Shown piece by piece: positions 1 to 11,589 of a DNA stretch of 64,000 nt. The DNA is taken from positions 1 to 64,000 of IMG/VR virus record IMGVR_UViG_3300025327_000016; one strand, 5' to 3'. This DNA is from a virus. A program made the position numbers and the translations under genes. Position 1 is the stretch's first letter. Each line of letters opens with the position of its first letter. Under the pieces are notes generated by a model. It ran no database searches. It was given only the letters and a program-made list of their open reading frames with translations, and was not told where the DNA came from.

Positions 1-640
1 AGCATTACTAACAGCACGACGAACAGCATTACCAATAGCACCACCAACAGCATCACCAACAGTACTATCAACAACATCACTAACAACATCACTAACAGCA
101 CCACGAACAGCATTATCAACAGCATTACGAACAGCTCTACGAACAGCATCATCAACAGCTATCCCAACAGCATTAAAAACAGCACTACCAACAGCATTAT
201 CAACAGCACTACCAACAGCCCTACCAACAGCATTACCAACAGCATTAAAAACAGCACTACCAACAGCATTATCAACAGCTATCCCAACAGCACTACTAAC
301 AGCATTATCAACAGCATTACCAACAGCATTACCAACAGCATCACCAACAGTACTACTAACAGCATCATCAACAGCTATCCCAACAGCATTACCAACAGCA
401 TTACTAACAGCACGACGAACAGCATTACCAATAGCACCACCAACAGCATCACCAACAGTACTATCAACAACATCACTAACAACATCACTAACAGCACCAC
501 GAACAGCATTATCAACAGCATTATCAACAGCATTACGAACAGCTCTACGAACAGCATTATCAACAGCTATCCCAACAGCACTACTAACAGCATCATCAAC
601 AGCACTACCAACAGCACTACTAACAGCATCATCAACAGCA
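1..640. repeat. 12-bp tandem repeat array with a 396-bp higher-order period
   Basis: About 53 units of the pattern AACAGCATTACC (plus strand) follow one another without a break in phase. Most variation falls in the six bases after AACAGC. The first 120 bases recur at 397-516 without a change that I can find; after that the second copy carries one extra 12-bp unit. This points to recent expansion by slippage or unequal recombination. The array codes for the Ala-Val protein on the minus strand. Confidence 0.9.
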
Positions 641-708
641 CTATAATACACAATACCTAATTCGTCTGTTCCTGAACCCGTAGGCCCCTTATATGGTTCA
701 GATAGCAT
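1..708 (-). CDS. Ala-Val tetrapeptide-repeat protein (partial, runs off window)
   Basis: The minus frame is open for 236 codons from the ATG at 706-708 to the window edge, so the C-terminus is missing. A strong AGGAGG ribosome binding site lies 9 nt upstream. A short unique N-terminus (MLSEPYKGPTGSGTDELG...) is followed by about 53 copies of a four-residue unit, Ala-Val-x-x, where x-x is mostly DN, DD, SS, GN, RR or RN. Each unit is one 12-bp DNA repeat. The plus strand is also open across the array, but it has no start codon or ribosome binding site, and all neighbouring genes are on the minus strand, so I chose minus. I see no catalytic motif. Function unknown; the repeat suggests an elongated or fibrous protein. 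Confidence 0.72.
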   Translation of the reverse strand, partial: MLSEPYKGPTGSGTDELGIVYYSAVDDAVSSAVGSAVDDAVSSAVGIAVDNAVRRAVRNAVDNAVDNAVRGAVSDVVSDVVDSTVGDAVGGAIGNAVRRAVSNAVGNAVGIAVDDAVSSTVGDAVGNAVGNAVDNAVSSAVGIAVDNAVGSAVFNAVGNAVGRAVGSAVDNAVGSAVFNAVGIAVDDAVRRAVRNAVDNAVRGAVSDVVSDVVDSTVGDAVGGAIGNAVRRAVSNA

Positions 709-2386: not shown

Positions 2387-2425
2387 GATTTAACCTCCTA
2401 TTCTTCCGTTAACAGCACCATCAAC

Positions 2426-2465
2426 AGTAGAAAAATGAGACCTGATTAATAAGGGATTGAAACTT
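2426..2465 (+). repeat. Solitary CRISPR-repeat-like unit, copy 1
   Basis: A 40-nt sequence ending in AAGGGATTGAAAC plus two bases. It differs from copy 2 (3453-3492) at two positions. The ATTGAAAC end is the classic 3' end (crRNA 5' handle) of many type I and type III CRISPR repeats. There is no array: the next copy is about 1 kb away. It lies in the gap between two minus-strand genes, and its CRISPR-sense strand is the plus strand. A 17-bp fragment of the 12-bp repeat (2411-2427) abuts it. Confidence 0.7.
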
Positions 2466-2468
2466 AAT

Positions 2469-2651
2469 TTATTCATTGATACCCTTCCCTTCTTTTTCAG
2501 AAATGTTTATAGACGAGAGAACTGGAGATATTGAAGAAGATTCAAATACTCTATCAGAGTATTCAAGAGCAATACTTTCTGCAGATGAAAAATTATTTGC
2601 TTTTACCGTAAATGTTACAGGATAAACTATTGTAACTTCATATAAATTCAT
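2469..2651 (-). CDS. Hypothetical protein, 60 aa
   Basis: I place the start at ATG 2649-2651, 4 nt after the stop of the upstream gene, which suggests coupled translation. A longer reading starting at 2852 only shadows the upstream gene in another frame. The product begins MNLYEVTIVYPVTFTVKANN and continues as a short acidic, Ser-rich protein. The first part looks like two or three beta strands. No family recognised. It is one of three genes bracketed by the CRISPR-like repeats. Confidence 0.6.
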   Translation of the reverse strand: MNLYEVTIVYPVTFTVKANNFSSAESIALEYSDRVFESSSISPVLSSINISEKEGKGINE

Positions 2652-2655
2652 TGTT

Positions 2656-2877
2656 TTACCACATATCCTTTCTTTTTGTGCGCTCCTGTTCGAGCGCACC
2701 AACCACCTTATTAAACTTATCTTCGGCTGGAAGCCGAAGATGATCAAACCTTTCCTCCAACATCCCCTGTTCTTCAGGGGATAATACATACCCCTGAGCG
2801 AGCTTCTGATGGAGCTCGTGACGAACGATCTCCTCTTCGGAGACCGTTTCAAAATATCTAATTTTGCTTTTTATCAT
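2656..2877 (-). CDS. Hypothetical helical protein, 73 aa
   Basis: ATG at 2875-2877 is chosen over the in-frame start at 2937 because GGGAGGTGT lies just upstream. The protein is charged and helical (EEEIVRHELHQKLAQGYVL; LEQERTKRKDMW). Its coding DNA contains several perfect hairpins: 2678-2699 (8 bp), 2719-2741 (10 bp, 3-nt loop) and 2762-2782 (8 bp), which begin the hairpin-rich zone. Function unknown. Confidence 0.68.
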   Translation of the reverse strand: MIKSKIRYFETVSEEEIVRHELHQKLAQGYVLSPEEQGMLEERFDHLRLPAEDKFNKVVGALEQERTKRKDMW

Positions 2878-2881
2878 ACTT

Positions 2882-3259
2882 CTACACCTCCCTAAATTGA
2901 ATAAATTTAAAGATGGCGGTCTTTTCGACCGTACCATCCGTCAATATTTTCTCTACCGCCTCGCGGCGGGAGGTAGATACTACTACTTTATACCCTAACT
3001 CTTTACACATATGAGTTAAAGTATAAAATAACGATTGTTCCCCCATTACATGGAGGATTACTTGAGAGGGGGATAACCCCTTAATATCAAGGATCTCTCC
3101 TATCTGATACATCATATCCATAGCTAACTTACTAATCCCCTCCTTGTCTAAGGAGGGGTCAACTTGCGGAAACGGCATATCTAATATATCCCCTTTTACC
3201 CCTTCTCTTTGTTCTATTGACCATTTCCCATATGGGTGGTTGCTGATATTAATAAACAT
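2882..3259 (-). CDS. Small Rossmann-like protein, possible type III CRISPR accessory/ring-nuclease relative
   Basis: ATG at 3257-3259 follows AAAGGAAGTGT; the longer in-frame start at 3376 has no ribosome binding site. The 125-aa protein begins MFINISNHPYGKWSIEQREG, has a DMPFPQVDP segment, then alternating strands and helices with HVMGEQSLFYTLTHMCKELG and VVVSTSRREAVE, ending FKFIQFREV. The fold pattern is Rossmann-like. From memory, this opening and the GE...Y.L...G motif recall small proteins found beside type III CRISPR systems (CARF-type, Csx20-like), but I cannot confirm this. It is the first gene downstream (minus sense) of CRISPR-like copy 2, which makes an anti-CRISPR role worth testing. 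The existence of the gene is firm; the function is a hypothesis. Confidence 0.7.
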   Translation of the reverse strand: MFINISNHPYGKWSIEQREGVKGDILDMPFPQVDPSLDKEGISKLAMDMMYQIGEILDIKGLSPSQVILHVMGEQSLFYTLTHMCKELGYKVVVSTSRREAVEKILTDGTVEKTAIFKFIQFREV

Positions 3260-3452
3260 ATTTACACTTCCTTTCTTTATCCATAATATCCACCTAAACA
3301 ATACAAACTTAGGTGGTCTTACCAAGATACATAACAGGATGCTTGCACACCGTATGCAAAACACCCTGTCATCCACAGACTTATCTTCCCCACGAACAGA
3401 AAAGGGCAGGTGGTAGATATCCTACCCGCCCACTCTCATCTTCCGTAGAAAA
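3260..3452. other. Leader region with hairpins, no gene
   Basis: This stretch upstream (minus sense) of the Rossmann-like gene holds an 8-bp hairpin with an 11-nt loop at 3290-3316, an imperfect hairpin near 3331-3375 (CAGGATGCTTGCA paired with TGCAAAACACCCTG), and a GGGCAGGTGGTAG / CCTACCCGCCC hairpin around 3405-3431. I see no open reading frame with a ribosome binding site. It may be the structured leader of the gene at 2882-3259. Confidence 0.5.
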
Positions 3453-3492
3453 AGTAGAAAAATGAGACCTGATCAGTAAGGGATTGAAACTT
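3453..3492 (+). repeat. Solitary CRISPR-repeat-like unit, copy 2
   Basis: It matches copy 1 at 38 of 40 positions; the only changes are TAA to CAG in the middle (two substitutions). Both copies are preceded by CTTCCGT within 50 nt. On the plus strand the unit is followed by a 12-nt T run (3505-3516), which would suit the end of a short transcript. It lies between the minus-strand terminator at 3519-3550 and the leader of the next gene, so it is not inside a protein gene. Confidence 0.7.
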
Positions 3493-3518
3493 TACGCCTT
3501 CTTTCTTTTTTTTTTTGA

Positions 3519-3550
3519 ATTAAAAAAAGCCGAGGGCTAATGCCCTCGGC
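3519..3550 (-). terminator. Intrinsic terminator, minus strand
   Basis: Perfect 9-bp stem (GCCGAGGGC / GCCCTCGGC, loop of 4) at 3529-3550, followed in the minus direction by seven U residues (the A run at 3522-3528). It lies just after the stop codon of the gene at 3561-3926. Confidence 0.75.
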
Positions 3551-3551
3551 T

Positions 3552-3894
3552 AAATCAAGCCTAGAAACTAGGCTTGATTTTTCCAGGAGCCTTTTTAGGC
3601 TCCTGGAGGAGCTCACTCACGCGAGCTCCTCCGTACCGTCCAAACTGGACGGTGTAGAGTTTGAACTCTTCACCGTCCTTTATTGTAATCCACGGGGACG
3701 GGTTCCCCGTGTCCCTGGGACCAAGTCCGATCCCAGTCCAGACGCACGCATCTGGGCTGAGATCAAAGATCTCAGCCAGCTCTCCTGTAATAATTACAGG
3801 AGAGCTTACGCTCCCTTTCTCAGCATTAAATCTTTCTATTAGCTCGCCCAAAGGGCGAGCCAATAAACCCTTAGCGAGCCCGATAAGGCTCGCT
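3552..3894. repeat. Chain of back-to-back perfect hairpins inside a coding sequence
   Basis: Perfect stems follow each other almost without gaps: 3552-3580 (13 bp, loop AAA), 3583-3606 (10 bp), 3607-3630 (8 bp), 3635-3653 (8 bp), 3691-3711 (8 bp), 3715-3736 (6 bp), 3755-3777 (10 bp, loop AAA), 3778-3806 (29-bp odd palindrome), 3842-3860 (8 bp, loop AAA) and 3873-3894 (8 bp). Together they cover most of the gene at 3561-3926. Both arms of each stem are coding. See findings. Confidence 0.9.
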
Positions 3895-3926
3895 TCTTTT
3901 TTCCCTTTAACTTCTATAAAGCTCAT
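3561..3926 (-). CDS. Hypothetical protein, 121 aa, encoded by hairpin-chain DNA
   Basis: ATG at 3924-3926 has an excellent AAAGGAGGTAAAAAA ribosome binding site. The protein has a plausible soluble composition: a basic N-terminus (VKGKKEASLIGLAKGLL), a middle with PVIITGELAEIFDLSPDACVWTG, and a basic C-terminus (LLQEPKKAPGKIKPSF). The LAEIFDLSPD segment could be a short helix-turn-helix-like element, but this is weak. The gene is bounded by a terminator downstream and a large hairpin upstream. Its DNA is markedly more GC-rich than the structural genes. Confidence 0.68.
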   Translation of the reverse strand: MSFIEVKGKKEASLIGLAKGLLARPLGELIERFNAEKGSVSSPVIITGELAEIFDLSPDACVWTGIGLGPRDTGNPSPWITIKDGEEFKLYTVQFGRYGGARVSELLQEPKKAPGKIKPSF

Positions 3927-3944
3927 TTTTTTACCTCCTTTTGG

Positions 3945-4082
3945 CAGCAGCTAGATGCCTGCTGCCTTGGATATTGTAGGTGCACATGGGGCAGACAAGG
4001 AACTGAATTGTCAAGATACGCTGTTTGTCTTGACAATGTCTGCCCCATGTGCTTTGCTTTTTAAGGCAGCAGGCAGCTGCTG
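3945..4082. promoter_or_regulatory. Large compound inverted repeat in the leader of the 3561-3926 gene
   Basis: Three nested perfect stems share one axis: 13 bp at 3956-3968/4063-4075 (extended by 7 bp at 3945-3951/4076-4082 across a 4-nt bulge), 16 bp at 3982-3997/4037-4052, and 9 bp at 4008-4016/4028-4036. It lies about 20 nt upstream of the ribosome binding site of the gene on the minus strand. It could be a regulatory RNA leader, a protein-binding cruciform or a replication element; the sequence does not decide. Confidence 0.75.
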
Positions 4083-4751
4083 ACTAAAAGAAAGAGGTAA
4101 AGAGATGAGGAGAAGTAAGGGGAAGAAAGAGGCATGAGACAGAGGGAAGCTAAAGAGGGGGGCTCGAGGAGGCGAGTTGATGGTGGCACCTCCCCTCCCT
4201 CTTTTAGGTGTTGTAGCTGGAGAGCAGAGGGGGTTTAGCCCCTCTGGTCGGGACACTATTATTACAACATCAAGGTTAGTGGGGGGGAATAGTATCCTCA
4301 TGTATAGGCTATCAACTTATACTATAAGGTTAAGTTGGATAGGGAAGAGGGGCCGAAGGCCCCTGATGGGAGCACTAAGAGGTTCTTTAAGGGTTATATA
4401 TGAGGCATAAAATAACTCCCTATATAAGCCTTGAAAGAAAACCCTGGATTAAAGCCATTTGTTTTTGAGAGATGAGTACCAATAAGGTGGTTTTTAAGAA
4501 TGGCTCTACCATTGACTTGAGACTACCTCAGCTACAGGGAACGACATCTAAAGGACAGGCAAAAAATGGCTCTGCTACGTGGTCAAAAACTGGCGTGGCT
4601 ATTGGATGTGGTTTTTCAAACGGATGTTGTATTATCAACGTTGGGCGCCGAAGGCGTAGTAGATAAGGGTAGGTTGGAATAGGAATAGACAAGGGGAGCC
4701 GAAGGCTTGAGGTAAGAGGAAGTAGGGAGGGGGGTGCGAAGCACCCCTGTT
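4083..4751. other. Structured, probably non-coding stretch with GAA-loop hairpins
   Basis: From 4083 to about 4180 the plus strand is very purine-rich. Short hairpins with a GAA loop follow at 4348-4364 (7 bp), near 4647 (CGCC-GAA-GGCG), near 4699 (AGCC-GAA-GGCT) and 4731-4747 (7 bp), plus an 8-bp stem at 4225-4246. Two plus-strand ORFs (4177-4410 with GAGGAGG upstream; 4472-4666 with a weak site) are possible, but have unconvincing composition and lack family features. No minus-strand gene with a ribosome binding site was found here. Confidence 0.45.
4472..4666 (+). CDS. Doubtful small ORF, 64 aa
   Basis: ATG at 4472 with a weak GAGAG site 1-2 nt upstream. The N-terminal half (MSTNKVVFKNGSTIDLRLPQ) reads like real coding sequence and vaguely recalls the FKNG...I stretch of the terminase in this window, but the similarity is too short to rely on. 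The C-terminus (VGRRRRSR) comes from one of the GAA-loop hairpins. It is on the opposite strand to the surrounding accessory genes. It may be a gene remnant. Confidence 0.25.
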   Translation: MSTNKVVFKNGSTIDLRLPQLQGTTSKGQAKNGSATWSKTGVAIGCGFSNGCCIINVGRRRRSR

Positions 4752-4797
4752 GGGAGGAAAAAGGGGAGCGGTAGAGCTAAACAAGCCTCTACCGCTC
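4752..4797 (-). terminator. Intrinsic terminator, minus strand
   Basis: Perfect 12-bp stem (4764-4775/4786-4797, loop of 10) followed on the minus strand by CCTTTTT. It lies 7 nt after the stop codon of the small zinc-ribbon gene at 4804-4983. Confidence 0.65.
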
Positions 4798-4803
4798 CGA
4801 AGA

Positions 4804-4983
4804 CTACGAGTAATCCTCGTAGTCGTCTTCCAGGGGGCAGGCTATTACCCACCCCCAATCGTATGCACAATCAACGCATACGCCCATCTCCTGACAAGAT
4901 GTCAGGAGACCTACTTCTCCACATACAGTGCAGAAGTCTATATCATCAACTTCCACCATAGAAGTTGATGATAATATTCTCAT
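4804..4983 (-). CDS. Small zinc-ribbon-like protein, 59 aa
   Basis: ATG at 4981-4983 with a near-perfect AAAGGAGGTGAAAT ribosome binding site. The product has CTVC at residues 18-21, CVDC at about 36-39, further Cys at about 30 and 49, and an acidic tail (LEDDYEDYS). Two CxxC pairs predict a zinc ribbon. The coding DNA is largely hairpin: 4802-4824 (9 bp), 4860-4882 (7 bp), 4887-4909 (9 bp) and 4941-4973 (13 bp). It ends at an intrinsic terminator. Function unknown. Confidence 0.72.
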   Translation of the reverse strand: MRILSSTSMVEVDDIDFCTVCGEVGLLTSCQEMGVCVDCAYDWGWVIACPLEDDYEDYS

Positions 4984-4999
4984 ATTTCACCTCCTTTCT

Positions 5000-5218
5000 T
5001 TAGTTGTTTGTTGAGACGTGACTTAGATACCATATCCAGTCACATCTTATTAGGGCTCCATCATACAATCTGGGCAAATAAAGTGCCCAGATTGCTTTCA
5101 GGATACAACCCTTTATTACTTCAGGGTTGTATCCTAGATCACTAACCCATTCTGGGTTAGTGATAAACATCATTCGTGCGCTGTACTGACAGCGCACGAA
5201 CTTAAACAAGTATTCCAT
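5000..5218 (-). CDS. Hypothetical protein, 72 aa
   Basis: ATG at 5216-5218 with GAAAGGAGGG upstream. The product is a compact aromatic protein (MEYLFKFVRCQYSARMMF; YNPEVIKGCILKAIWALYLPRLYDG). No family recognised. Its coding DNA is made of four large, nearly adjacent perfect hairpins: 5066-5094 (11 bp), 5100-5135 (13 bp), 5138-5164 (12 bp, 3-nt loop) and 5173-5200 (12 bp, 4-nt loop). Each arm encodes a different peptide, so the structure constrains the protein. Confidence 0.7.
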   Translation of the reverse strand: MEYLFKFVRCQYSARMMFITNPEWVSDLGYNPEVIKGCILKAIWALYLPRLYDGALIRCDWIWYLSHVSTNN

Positions 5219-5246
5219 TAATATCCCTCCTTTCTAATCTAGCAAG

Positions 5247-5450
5247 CTACCGCTTGCTGCATATATCAACAACAAACCCTGCTCCTCCTAATAGGAGGAG
5301 TACTACAAGCACTCCTCCCAACCATGGGAGCAGCACACAAGCTGCTCCCACCAACCCCACCCATAAGAGGGTGGTACCAATTAGGTTGTCCTTCTTTCGA
5401 AGGAACCAACCTAGTACTGCTATAAAAATACAAATTAACAACCTTAACAT
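5247..5450 (-). CDS. Small membrane protein, 67 aa, paralogue of the gene at 2144-2386
   Basis: ATG at 5448-5450 with GAGAGGTGAG upstream. Three hydrophobic segments: residues 2-16, about 24-40 and about 43-60, with a short RKKDN loop. The layout GW-basic loop-two close membrane segments matches the protein encoded at 2144-2386. The coding DNA holds hairpins at 5282-5300 (19-bp odd palindrome) and 5325-5350 (10 bp). No enzyme motif. It could act on the membrane during infection, but this is inference. Confidence 0.7.
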   Translation of the reverse strand: MLRLLICIFIAVLGWFLRKKDNLIGTTLLWVGLVGAACVLLPWLGGVLVVLLLLGGAGFVVDICSKR

Positions 5451-5520
5451 ATTTACTCACCTCTCTTTCTCGTGACCATTATTTAACGAGGCGGTCACTA
5501 CCTCGTAAGCTCAGTCCTAA

Positions 5521-5685
5521 CTATCCCTCCTTTCGCGCGATGTACTCATCGTACATCGCGTTGATATCCTCGTCCGTAAGAACGAGGTCTTCCGACCAGG
5601 ACTCATAGTCCTGGTCTACCTGCTGGAGGCAGCCCCAGCAAGGGGCTGCCTCCAGGTACAACTCATCAATCAGGTCCCTGATCAT
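5521..5685 (-). CDS. Small acidic protein, 54 aa
   Basis: ATG at 5683-5685 with AAAGGAGGTGAG upstream; a longer in-frame start at 5832 would only shadow the upstream gene. The product is strongly acidic (SEDLVLTDEDINAMYDEYI), with CWGC near residues 15-18. The start overlaps the stop of the upstream gene as ATGA. Coding hairpins: 5536-5560 (10 bp), 5594-5616 (10 bp, 3-nt loop) and 5623-5655 (14 bp, 5-nt loop). Small acidic phage proteins often bind host proteins or mimic DNA; nothing here proves that. Confidence 0.68.
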   Translation of the reverse strand: MIRDLIDELYLEAAPCWGCLQQVDQDYESWSEDLVLTDEDINAMYDEYIARKEG

Positions 5686-5849
5686 TTGCTCACCTCCTTT
5701 CGAAGGCGAACAGCTTCTGAAAGCTGCTCGCGATGATATCGCGAGCGTAACTCCCAGACATACTCTGGGAGCTTGTCCAAAAGCCCCCAGACTAACTCGG
5801 GTTCCCAACCCGAGTATCTCTTTTCGATCCAACTTTCAAAACTCATCAT
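5682..5849 (-). CDS. Hypothetical protein, 55 aa
   Basis: I choose ATG at 5847-5849 (AGTAGGT upstream) over the in-frame start at 5891. The product is helical and charged (MMSFESWIEKRYSGWEPELVWGLL... ending EAVRLRKEVSK). Its TGA overlaps the ATG of the next gene (ATGA), so the pair is translationally coupled. Coding hairpins include 5726-5746 (9 bp, 3-nt loop), 5751-5771 (8 bp) and 5795-5815 (9 bp, 3-nt loop). No family recognised. Confidence 0.62.
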   Translation of the reverse strand: MMSFESWIEKRYSGWEPELVWGLLDKLPEYVWELRSRYHREQLSEAVRLRKEVSK

Positions 5850-5904
5850 ATAATACCTACTTTCTGCCGCTGTTAAGCGGCGTAATGTCACCCACTTGGT
5901 GGGT

Positions 5905-5946
5905 GCAAAAAAGGGGAAGGGAGAGCTTGTAAGCTCTCCCTTCCCC
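5905..5946 (-). terminator. Intrinsic terminator, minus strand
   Basis: The longest perfect stem in the arm: 16 bp at 5913-5928/5931-5946 with a 2-nt centre, followed on the minus strand by six U residues (A run 5907-5912). It lies just after the stop of the gene at 5957-6193. Confidence 0.8.
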
Positions 5947-5956
5947 CCAACTTACT

Positions 5957-6193
5957 TTACTCAGAGACCTCGGCGTAGAATGCGCCGAGATCCTCCTTCC
6001 CCTTTATTACAACATTAACGCACTGGCCGAGGTTACTGTGAATGTAAAAACTCGTGCATTCAATCTTTTCAGCTGCGCACGCTGCGCAGCTGGACGGGTA
6101 GGCATAGCCTACCCATCCAGTGAACCCCGCGGGCGGGTTCTGACACCATTCCATGATGGCGTCGTAAAGCTCTCTACCTTTACAAATACTCAT
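5957..6193 (-). CDS. Hypothetical protein with cysteine cluster, 78 aa
   Basis: ATG at 6191-6193 with GAAAGGAGTAT upstream. The protein has an N-terminal helix (GRELYDAIMEWCQNPPAG), a central cluster SSCAACAAEKIEC and a C-terminal part VNVVIKGKEDLGAFYAEVSE. Three clustered cysteines plus one at residue 17 could bind a metal. Coding hairpins at 6071-6091 (9 bp, loop CGC) and 6096-6114 (8 bp, 3-nt loop). It ends at a strong terminator. Function unknown. Confidence 0.68.
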   Translation of the reverse strand: MSICKGRELYDAIMEWCQNPPAGFTGWVGYAYPSSCAACAAEKIECTSFYIHSNLGQCVNVVIKGKEDLGAFYAEVSE

Positions 6194-6205
6194 ATTATAC
6201 TCCTT

Positions 6206-6310
6206 TCATCTACAGCCTGCCTCACGGTCAGGTCTTACATAGACCTCATCATCGGTGTCGCAAGCCACCTCCCACCTACACCCCGTGGTTGGGGTTAAGC
6301 CCGCAACCAT
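6206..6310 (-). CDS. Tiny ORF, 34 aa
   Basis: ATG at 6308-6310 begins 3 nt after the stop of the 24-codon ORF upstream, so re-initiation is plausible; its own ribosome binding site is weak. The peptide is MVAGLTPTTGCRWEVACDTD followed by an acidic-to-basic tail ending AGCR. The stop codon precedes the AAAGGAG of the next gene. It fills the gap exactly between two genes, which supports it, but its small size leaves real doubt. Confidence 0.42.
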   Translation of the reverse strand: MVAGLTPTTGCRWEVACDTDDEVYVRPDREAGCR

Positions 6311-6313
6311 AGA

Positions 6314-6388
6314 TTACTCTATGGTTGCGAACTCAGCGTTCAGTATCGCCCAACAATAGGCGACACAAATCCAAAGTTCAAATATCAT
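6314..6388 (-). CDS. Tiny hydrophobic leader ORF, 24 aa
   Basis: ATG at 6386-6388 has one of the best ribosome binding sites in the window (AAAGGAGGTGAAATAT). The peptide MIFELWICVAYCWAILNAEF plus four residues is mostly hydrophobic and could be a single membrane helix or a leader peptide. A perfect 12-bp hairpin (6302-6329, 4-nt loop) covers its stop and the start of the next ORF, which would suit translational control. It appears to be the first gene of this minus-strand operon. Confidence 0.5.
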   Translation of the reverse strand: MIFELWICVAYCWAILNAEFATIE

Positions 6389-6693
6389 ATATTTCACCTC
6401 CTTTCAGCCACATAGTTCACAGGGGGGGGTGGGGCACCAAACGATAAATCCCCTGTGATATTATCTGCATTACCACCCACACACACATACACTCACCCTA
6501 ACGGGGTTACCTGCTCGCACCACAAGCAAATAAATGAGCCTAGAACACATCGTAGGGGAAGGGGTGGGTACTGGAAGCTAGGGGTAATTACCCCTAGCTT
6601 TAAGAAGCCTTCTAAAATTTTTAGTGGAACCTTCTCTTATTTAGCTTTCGCCAGGGCTTTAACAGCTTTTATATCTAACAAGAGGTATATATC
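6389..6693. other. Divergent intergenic region between the minus arm and plus-strand genes
   Basis: About 300 bp without a convincing gene. It contains a 9-bp inverted repeat with a 24-nt loop at 6417-6458 (leader of the minus operon), a possible minus-strand -10 (TAATAT, near 6462-6467) without a clear -35, and a perfect 26-bp palindrome at 6575-6600. The two gene groups diverge from here, so promoters for both strands are expected, but I cannot place them with confidence. Confidence 0.5.
6575..6600. repeat. Perfect 26-bp palindrome
   Basis: AAGCTAGGGGTAA joined to its exact reverse complement, with no loop. The absence of a spacer favours a dimeric protein-binding site over an RNA hairpin. 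It sits in the divergent intergenic region, a natural place for an operator. Confidence 0.7.
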
Positions 6694-9394: not shown

Positions 9395-9868
9395 ATGTCT
9401 TTAATTTCAAGTATAGCAAAGCATTTTAAAGCTAAATGGTTGCCAGCAACTGCTGTTGGTATTGGTGGGGTTATGGAGTATCGCTCTCACTTGGGAGAGC
9501 GTGATAAACCCGTTACAGCAGCTCTTAAAACAATAGGTTCCCAAGCCTTATGGTATCTTTACCCAGCCGCTATGACAGCAATTCACGCCGCTCCTTTCTT
9601 ATCAGCTGCAGGCACAGCTATGGAAGCCAACAGGCGACAAGCTGCAGGCACTATGATGTTTGGTGCCCAAACCTTTGGACCTAGAGATGTATTAGATAAT
9701 GCCTATTTGGCTACTAATAGAGCAAGAGCTCTTACAGCTATAAATCAATCTAAGCTAAATGCTCGTAATATTATCGGCCAAGAAGCCGCCCTTATGTCAG
9801 CAAGATATTCAGGAGCAGGTTCTATTGGTGGTGCTGGTTATAATTCTTTTTATGGAGCATCTTATTAA
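9395..9868 (+). CDS. Ala-rich protein, 157 aa
   Basis: ATG at 9395 with AGAGGA upstream. A basic N-terminus (SSIAKHFKAKWLPATAVGIGG) leads into a middle with a hydrophobic stretch (ALWYLYPAAMTAIHAAPFLSAAG) and an Ala/Arg-rich C-terminus. A 7-bp coding hairpin with a 6-nt loop lies near 9482-9501. Probably a minor virion protein like the two genes before it; no recognised family. Confidence 0.6.
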   Translation: MSLISSIAKHFKAKWLPATAVGIGGVMEYRSHLGERDKPVTAALKTIGSQALWYLYPAAMTAIHAAPFLSAAGTAMEANRRQAAGTMMFGAQTFGPRDVLDNAYLATNRARALTAINQSKLNARNIIGQEAALMSARYSGAGSIGGAGYNSFYGASY

Positions 9869-9873
9869 TTTAT

Positions 9874-11589
9874 ATGGGTATAGATATAACTCGTTTTACT
9901 CCAGAACAACGCAGTAGGTATATAGAAGTTCTTAAGACCTTTCCTCTCTTCGCAAAAGAATTTTTCGATAAAACTCTTCGTGATTGGCAACAAACAGTTG
10001 TTGCAACAAATGCTAAACGTTTTGCGTTACGCGTAGCACGTCGTGGTGGTAAAACCGAATTAGTATGTATGATGGTTTTATGGTTATGTTTTACTAATGG
10101 TAAGGTCATAGATCCTACCCGCAAGCAACGATACAAAGTTATTGTGATGGCTCCACTAGAAACCCATCTTAATGATATTTATCAGAATATGCTAACACTC
10201 ATAAATACCTCTAAAGATTTTCAAGAGAGTATAGAGAAGCCCGCTAAAGCACCTGCATTTTTGCGTTTTAAAAACGGTGCTGTTATACAATTCTTAACAG
10301 CAGGTACCAAGTCGGGAATGGCAGCCATGGGTATTCGTGGTAAGTGGGGTGATTTAATATGGGTAGAAGAAGCAGACTATTGTACGGATGATGACATGAC
10401 ATCAGCTTTAGCTATCTTGGGTCAATCAGATGACATTAGGTTTATAATGACATCTACTCCATCAGGTAAAAGAGGTATATACTACGAGACATGTGTTGAT
10501 CCAGAACCCAGAGGCTTCAAATCATTTCACTATAATTGCTGGGAAGCAATACCAGATTGGAATGAAGAACGTGATAGGCAGATACGTATGCTCATTGGGC
10601 CAGTTAGGTATGAACATGAACAACTAGCTGATTTTGGTTCTGAATCATTTGCGGTATTTAAGAAAGAAAAAATAGATACTGCTAAAAATCGCGATACACC
10701 ATGGTATACTCATTCTCCCAAATCTCATCCTAATTATGGGTATCTTATGTCTAAGCTTTATAGCAAAGAACATCCTATCGTAATAGGAGTAGATTGGGAT
10801 AAGTATCATGCTGCTACTCAGATAGTTGTTGTGCAGTTTGAAAGATATGATGATAAAGACTATTATATGCGCGTAATAGCAAGACATGAAATACCAATAG
10901 GAGAATATACCCTACATAACGCTACTAAGAAAATAGTTATGCTTAATGATTTCTATCAACCAGATTATATCTATTGTGATCGTGGTTATGGAGAAGGTCA
11001 GATAGAAAACTTAAAAGTAGTTGGTTTGGAGAATCCAGAAACCAAACTTCACGATAAAGTAATTGGTGTACATTTTGGACAGTCAGTAGATATTCTAGAT
11101 CCGCATACTAGGGTAAGATCATCAACGCCAATCAAACCACTAATGGTAAATAGATTAACTCAGATGTTTGATGACGAAGTACTTATACTAAGTCCTCATG
11201 ATCACTTCATGACCCTAGAGTTAAACGAATATCGAGTTAAGCGTATGAGCCAAAATGGACAACCCATTTTCTCTTCTAAGAACGAACATGCCATAGACGC
11301 TCTTATGTTAGCAGTATATGGTATTACCGAACACTTTTTAAATATGGGCAAGGTAGAATCTTATGCTGAGATGCAGCCTATTAGCAATATCTTAAAGCGC
11401 GTACCTGAAAACAAAACCTCACCATTACAAAAACGCAACACCAATATAGATTATGAGCCCCCTCCGCCTGGGTTTATACCATCCAATCAGTATGGATTGC
11501 GAGGAGGGGGATTCGACAGCTTTAATCCTACAGTATCTAGATTTGGTGGTTCAGGTATAAGACGTAGAAGTTTTACGCGAGGTAGCTAA
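9874..11589 (+). CDS. terL: Terminase large subunit
   Basis: DNA-packaging motor, 571 aa. The ATPase half has the adenine-binding RDWQQ motif, Walker A ARRGGKTE with K60, Walker B LIWVEEAD with E165/E166, and motif III IMTSTPSGKRG. The nuclease half has the three acidic clusters of the RNase H fold: GVDWD (D307), YCDRGYGEG (D369) and HAIDALM (D475). All key residues are present, so it should be active. It cuts and pumps phage DNA into the prohead through the portal encoded downstream. It ends in TAATG overlap with the next gene. Confidence 0.96.
   Translation: MGIDITRFTPEQRSRYIEVLKTFPLFAKEFFDKTLRDWQQTVVATNAKRFALRVARRGGKTELVCMMVLWLCFTNGKVIDPTRKQRYKVIVMAPLETHLNDIYQNMLTLINTSKDFQESIEKPAKAPAFLRFKNGAVIQFLTAGTKSGMAAMGIRGKWGDLIWVEEADYCTDDDMTSALAILGQSDDIRFIMTSTPSGKRGIYYETCVDPEPRGFKSFHYNCWEAIPDWNEERDRQIRMLIGPVRYEHEQLADFGSESFAVFKKEKIDTAKNRDTPWYTHSPKSHPNYGYLMSKLYSKEHPIVIGVDWDKYHAATQIVVVQFERYDDKDYYMRVIARHEIPIGEYTLHNATKKIVMLNDFYQPDYIYCDRGYGEGQIENLKVVGLENPETKLHDKVIGVHFGQSVDILDPHTRVRSSTPIKPLMVNRLTQMFDDEVLILSPHDHFMTLELNEYRVKRMSQNGQPIFSSKNEHAIDALMLAVYGITEHFLNMGKVESYAEMQPISNILKRVPENKTSPLQKRNTNIDYEPPPPGFIPSNQYGLRGGGFDSFNPTVSRFGGSGIRRRSFTRGS

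Follow-up and report, generated by a model that had tools for sequence, protein, structure and literature searches.

A Csx20-family protein bracketed by two solitary CRISPR-like repeats: a probable anti-CRISPR locus in a contractile-tailed phage

For the Csx20 family, ring-nuclease activity against cyclic tetra-adenylate (cA4) has been proven by experiment, and a similarity between Csx20 and Crn1 has been published (PMC12409355). The same study found Csx20 in four of 28,114 phage genomes, where it was presumed to act as an anti-CRISPR; a phage-borne Csx20 is therefore not new by itself. AcrIII-1 (viral Crn2, DUF1874) is likewise a viral ring nuclease that removes cA4, but belongs to a different protein family. 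Solitary CRISPR repeats, for their part, can serve as RNA anti-CRISPRs (Racrs), and racr genes cluster with acr genes: RacrIC1, for example, lies beside AcrIC5 (PMC10651486).

The phage locus described here has features of all of these. With the Csx20 proteins of type III loci the phage copy shares full-length homology, invariant residues, size and a CARF-like fold; it differs from them in having no cas genes nearby and in its hairpin-dense coding sequence. Compared with the earlier phage cases (reported as counts), the present locus adds two solitary CRISPR repeats. As with the Racrs, single CRISPR-like repeats stand next to a candidate phage anti-CRISPR gene, although here, unlike RacrIC1, the partner is a predicted ring nuclease. 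We consider it likely (a probability of roughly 80%) that the phage uses a Csx20-family ring nuclease as an anti-CRISPR, the flanking repeats probably forming a second layer.

The window (the whole stretch analysed, 64,000 nucleotides) covers positions 1 to 64,000 of an IMG/VR virus record of 99,839 bases, IMGVR_UViG_3300025327_000016. Three more virus contigs carry this stretch at 99.9% DNA identity and, because one of them is 161 kb long and holds the same virus, the phage genome exceeds 160 kb. Family libraries were run on selected genes of the record. PHROGs models match a tail sheath and baseplate proteins as well as a terminase, a portal and a major head protein, the set of a contractile-tailed phage. 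Its terminase is closest to that of Moorella phage MTATph1 (36% identity); neither tblastn nor megablast revealed close relatives among sequenced phages, and a tblastn search of 50,697 phage records with the phage Csx20 gave no match. Nothing cas-like was recognised among the listed genes of the 99.8-kb record and a 10-kb left extension. A viral gene with no cas genes nearby is one mark of an anti-CRISPR ring nuclease, and this is the arrangement seen here, as judged by the phage structural genes and the gene lists. The left end of the window (1-708, minus frame) encodes a low-complexity protein of NAV-x-x repeats (AVDNAVRNAVGNAV...); such proteins recur at L008:3200-6041, where a longer open reading frame of the phage's left extension (L008:4764-6041) also contains the repeats.

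The features of the locus are collected in Table 1. A sequence-only reading had proposed a 125-aa minus-strand gene at the position of csx20, and the gene is real: its ATG start (3257-3259) is preceded by a ribosome-binding site, and the frame runs without internal stops to give the product MFINISNHPYGKWSIEQ...HVMGEQSLFYTL...FIQFREV. A longer frame of 164 aa differs only by a GTG start further upstream. The positions also bear out the claim that csx20 is the first minus-strand gene past repeat 2. The products of the two small genes on either side of csx20 matched no Pfam or PADLOC family.

Table 1. Positions of the features of the csx20 locus in the window.
Feature	Position	Strand	Description	Basis
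csx20, predicted cA4 ring nuclease	2882..3259	-	125 aa	PADLOC and NCBIfam profiles, residues, AF2 model, fold matches
Ribosome-binding site of csx20	3265..3274	-	AAAGGAAGTG	Read from sequence
Solitary repeat 1	2427..2463	+	37 nt, GTAGAAAAATGAGACCTGATTAATAAGGGATTGAAAC; closes 3′ with ATTGAAAC, like crRNA 5′ handles	Repeat search
Solitary repeat 2	3454..3490	+	37 nt; differs from repeat 1 within three central bases only (CAG for TAA)	
Cassette of small genes	2656..6330	-	Coding sequences dense with perfect hairpins	Stem density and synonymous-shuffle folding
Small gene after csx20	2656..2877	-	73 aa, no family, hairpin-rich	Synonymous-shuffle MFE z -4.5
Small gene upstream of csx20	3561..3926	-	121 aa, without a family; coding sequence holds 7 perfect hairpins	z -7.9
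Intrinsic terminator of gene 3561-3926	3528..3551	-	Between that gene and repeat 2 plus csx20	

The 125-aa protein is a member of the Csx20 family. The PADLOC Csx20 model (PDLC01397) covers residues 1-124 with E=1.8e-22, and the NCBIfam Csx20 model matches the C-terminal half (residues 65-124, E=4.3e-10) with a score of 40, below its curated cut-off of 70. Conservation was scored on an alignment of 91 Csx20 sequences: all 11 invariant residues (N4, N7, H8, Q17, F30, P31, G73, E74, R99, F117 and R123) are retained by the phage protein, as are W13, D27, H70, T96, K113 and F119, which are near-invariant (≥95%). The family pattern N-x2-NH, W, Q, D, FP, H-x2-GE, T-x2-R, K, F-x-F, FR is present; the phage copy deviates at the C-terminal tyrosine, replaced by valine, with most other near-invariant positions retained. 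The sequence-only reading had pointed to a likeness to small proteins near type III CRISPR loci that are proposed to bind or cut cyclic oligoadenylates, and this proved correct.

The AlphaFold (AF2) model, with a mean pLDDT of 97.5 and values above 90 at 125/125 residues, has a CARF-like fold related to Crn1. The top Foldseek matches in the PDB are Csm6, the Crn1 protein Sso2081 and cA4-bound Cam1, followed by SAVED receptors. Each of these matches is weak by itself (best E=3e-3; Sso2081, ranked second, has probability 0.97 and a weak E-value of 4.8e-3), but most of the top matches are cyclic-oligonucleotide proteins and the ranking agrees with the published likeness of Csx20 to Crn1.

Relatives of the phage protein, to which it is about 32-42% identical, mostly belong to CRISPR loci. 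A tblastn search gave four plasmid relatives; the three examined in context all occupy CRISPR loci that include type III genes, near csx2/Csm6 and Cmr genes, and two of the three directly adjoin csx2. The four-sequence alignment, used as a query, recovered 259 relatives in genome contigs. Among the best 80 of these, 66 loci have CRISPR genes within flanks of ~10 kb, a lower bound given that flanking genes were called by tblastn with few reference proteins; type III core genes were recognised in 9 of the 80.

The same query identified seven further IMG/VR contigs encoding Csx20. No cas genes were detected in their flanks by tblastn with the reference proteins, and several hold phage genes (terminase, head maturation protease, RecT, ParB/methyltransferase). 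In a phylogenetic tree the phage Csx20 groups with the viral L100 copy (support 100/85); both have long branches and, because that of the phage protein is so long (1.88), its placement is unsure. One viral contig, L094, contains two csx20 genes (6001-6363 and 10188-10538), each with a tRNA gene nearby; only the first copy is hairpin-rich.

csx20 is bracketed by the two solitary repeats. These are the only copies in the whole 99.8-kb record: both are intergenic, neither has spacer-repeat neighbours and there is no array. Dinucleotide shuffles gave 0 matches to the repeat in 100, and the Rfam family CRISPR-DR8 matches both copies (E=5.6e-4 for repeat 1), below its gathering score. A genuine array of 15 repeats with the unit GTTTGAAACGAGACCTGATTAAGAAGGGATTAAGAC is present on a Methylocaldum szegediense plasmid (NZ_OX458334.1; L106, about 9702-10710). 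The solitary repeat is identical to this unit at 27/36 bases, a level reached by 0/2000 shuffles; none of the repeats compared attains the 90% identity rule of SRUFinder. The predicted stem is the same in both solitary repeats and in the array repeat, and arrays next to cellular csx20 genes have comparable ends (AAGG-ATT-A-AC). No cas genes are annotated on the Methylocaldum plasmid, so its array has no assigned CRISPR type. On the strength of the shared bases, the common predicted stem and the similar ends of the arrays beside csx20, the two repeats are very probably CRISPR-repeat mimics.

Cas6 processing leaves a repeat-derived 5′ handle on the crRNA, and transcription of the plus strand would yield a crRNA-like 5′ handle from the 3′ end of the solitary repeats (ATTGAAAC). 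The repeats run antisense to the csx20 gene cluster; no convincing promoter for them was seen at the locus. Neither an exact search of the genome contigs nor a loose search of 398 sampled genomes of one phylum returned a close repeat by which the host could be identified. Comparison of the phage with 769 spacer segments yielded nothing convincing, the first ten matches listed being 14-18 nt, at chance level. A T-tract at 3516-3523, just downstream of repeat 2, is the sole assembly difference for this virus in the stretches compared.

A two-layer anti-CRISPR reading of csx20 and the repeat mimics is, at the level of sequence comparison, well supported, because the repeat core matches that of a genuine array in both bases and predicted fold. 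On infection, a type III complex of the host would recognise phage RNA and its Cas10 would make cA4. The phage protein, which from modelling of the family is probably a dimer, would bind cA4 in its CARF-like pocket and, by analogy with the family (PMC12409355), open the ring to linear products; with cA4 removed, effectors of the Csm6/Csx1 type would stay inactive. Repeat RNAs, if expressed, may be taken by host Cas6/Cas7 as false crRNA repeats, as suggested by the Racrs (PMC10651486). We infer that this Csx20 copy is active, that the repeats are expressed and that the two parts are used together. The anti-CRISPRs known to act on type III immunity would thereby gain a locus that pairs a ring nuclease with a repeat mimic, and the viral Csx20 proteins provide a set for testing.

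Other explanations for the phage Csx20 are less probable. It could be a cyclic oligoadenylate sponge that lacks useful turnover, as is Csx15, a small CARF/SAVED-like protein that sequesters cA4 well and cleaves it very slowly (PMC13148439). The divergence of the phage protein, evident in its long branch, is consistent with such a role; nonetheless, it has every invariant Csx20 residue, the Csx20 tested was an active cA4 nuclease (PMC12409355) and Csx15 itself was not found in phages (PMC13148439), making a sponge unlikely. A still smaller chance attaches to the protein being a regulator of the phage's own CRISPR or cyclic-nucleotide signalling system and not an anti-CRISPR. Large phages can carry CRISPR systems, and cellular Csx20 copies do belong to defence loci, but the lack of any recognised cas-like gene in the gene lists of the record and its left extension, together with the presence of the repeats as single copies, makes this very improbable, with some room left for a distant system elsewhere in the >160-kb genome. 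Searches of Pfam and PHROGs with the phage Csx20 matched no model, as would be expected if this were a common Rossmann-like phage protein with no tie to cyclic oligoadenylates, its resemblance to Csx20 being chance; such a view is already contradicted by the full-length Csx20 match, the conserved motif set and the CRISPR setting of the relatives, and we regard it as scarcely tenable.

The repeats invite a more serious doubt: they might be remnants of a CRISPR array, or sites of spacer integration, leaving csx20 to act alone. Their antisense orientation and the want of a convincing promoter would fit this. On the other hand, a decaying array or integration site does not readily account for two near-identical copies that differ in the loop only, with no spacer-repeat neighbours and no third copy in the contig. 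Both copies are also predicted to fold like a real repeat, and they lie <1 kb from a probable anti-CRISPR gene, an arrangement enriched for Racrs (PMC10651486). We therefore view the remnant explanation as the less likely of the two, and prefer to see the repeats as a probable RNA layer alongside the Csx20 ring nuclease.

The coding sequences of the cassette are unusually rich in perfect hairpins, which follow one another back to back. Stems of ≥10 bp occur at 4.9 per kb in 2400-6500, compared with 0.18 per kb across the remaining contig. Folding was assessed against synonymous shuffles, which preserve the protein and codon counts and do not preserve dinucleotides across codons: cassette genes fold at z about -4 to -8 (csx20 about -4), sampled genes outside it at about +1 to -4, mostly -3 or weaker. 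Viral csx20 genes share the trait, with z of -2.7 to -7.2 in 8/9 copies, the exception being the second copy of L094 (-0.08), whereas the non-viral copies, 80 on genome contigs and three on plasmids, have a mean z of -0.8 (sd 1.3). The difference between the first eight viral copies and the 83 non-viral copies has a Mann-Whitney p of 4e-6, with rows treated as independent of relatedness. On the viral csx20 contigs z averages about -1 for most core genes, though one terminase has -3.2, and reaches -2 to -11 in small neighbouring accessory genes; the trait thus belongs to accessory cassettes and extends beyond csx20. In MTATph1, the nearest cultivated relative by terminase, the hairpin cassette is absent from the part read (85-176.6 kb).

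That viral csx20 genes are hairpin-dense, unlike most cellular ones, raises the question of whether phages shape their mRNAs against RNA-targeting immunity. In vitro, type III-B complexes are activated less by structured target RNA (PMC8682760), so that a shielding role for the hairpins can be tested. Synonymous codons might write counter-defence mRNAs as chains of hairpins, a third, cis-acting layer of the locus: type III CRISPR would be hindered in reading the phage mRNAs and RNases activated by cyclic oligoadenylates in cutting them, and such shielding would bridge the time until the ring nuclease is made. We hold this idea to be speculative and rather improbable. Selection has a fair rival as the source of the hairpins in template-switch mutation of rapidly changing genes. 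On whether the hairpins arise at the DNA or the RNA level the signs diverge: the strand asymmetry of folding is weak (z of -5.5 sense and -5.2 antisense, p=0.13), yet G-U mismatches are 10 times as frequent as A-C mismatches within coding sequences. A search of IMG/VR for diverged homologues of two genes of the cassette, as material for an analysis of covariation, gave none. Of the hairpins in the csx20 genes of L098 and L099 only a minority is shared, and compensatory changes between the two are no more frequent than in slid controls, one clearly compensated stem being the exception. In an incomplete coverage of the literature we found no description of hairpin-rich coding regions in phages.

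The most structured non-viral csx20 copies are those of L069 and L028, neither of which had a cas match nearby in the tblastn comparison with the reference proteins. The L069 contig is hairpin-dense and may be a mobile element. It also encodes a small protein (10124-10486, opening MVFVFNHTTNQQRTEEE) that has no match in PADLOC or PHROG and recalls small ring-nuclease-like proteins. In L028, csx20 adjoins genes whose products resemble, by eye, type III RAMP proteins.
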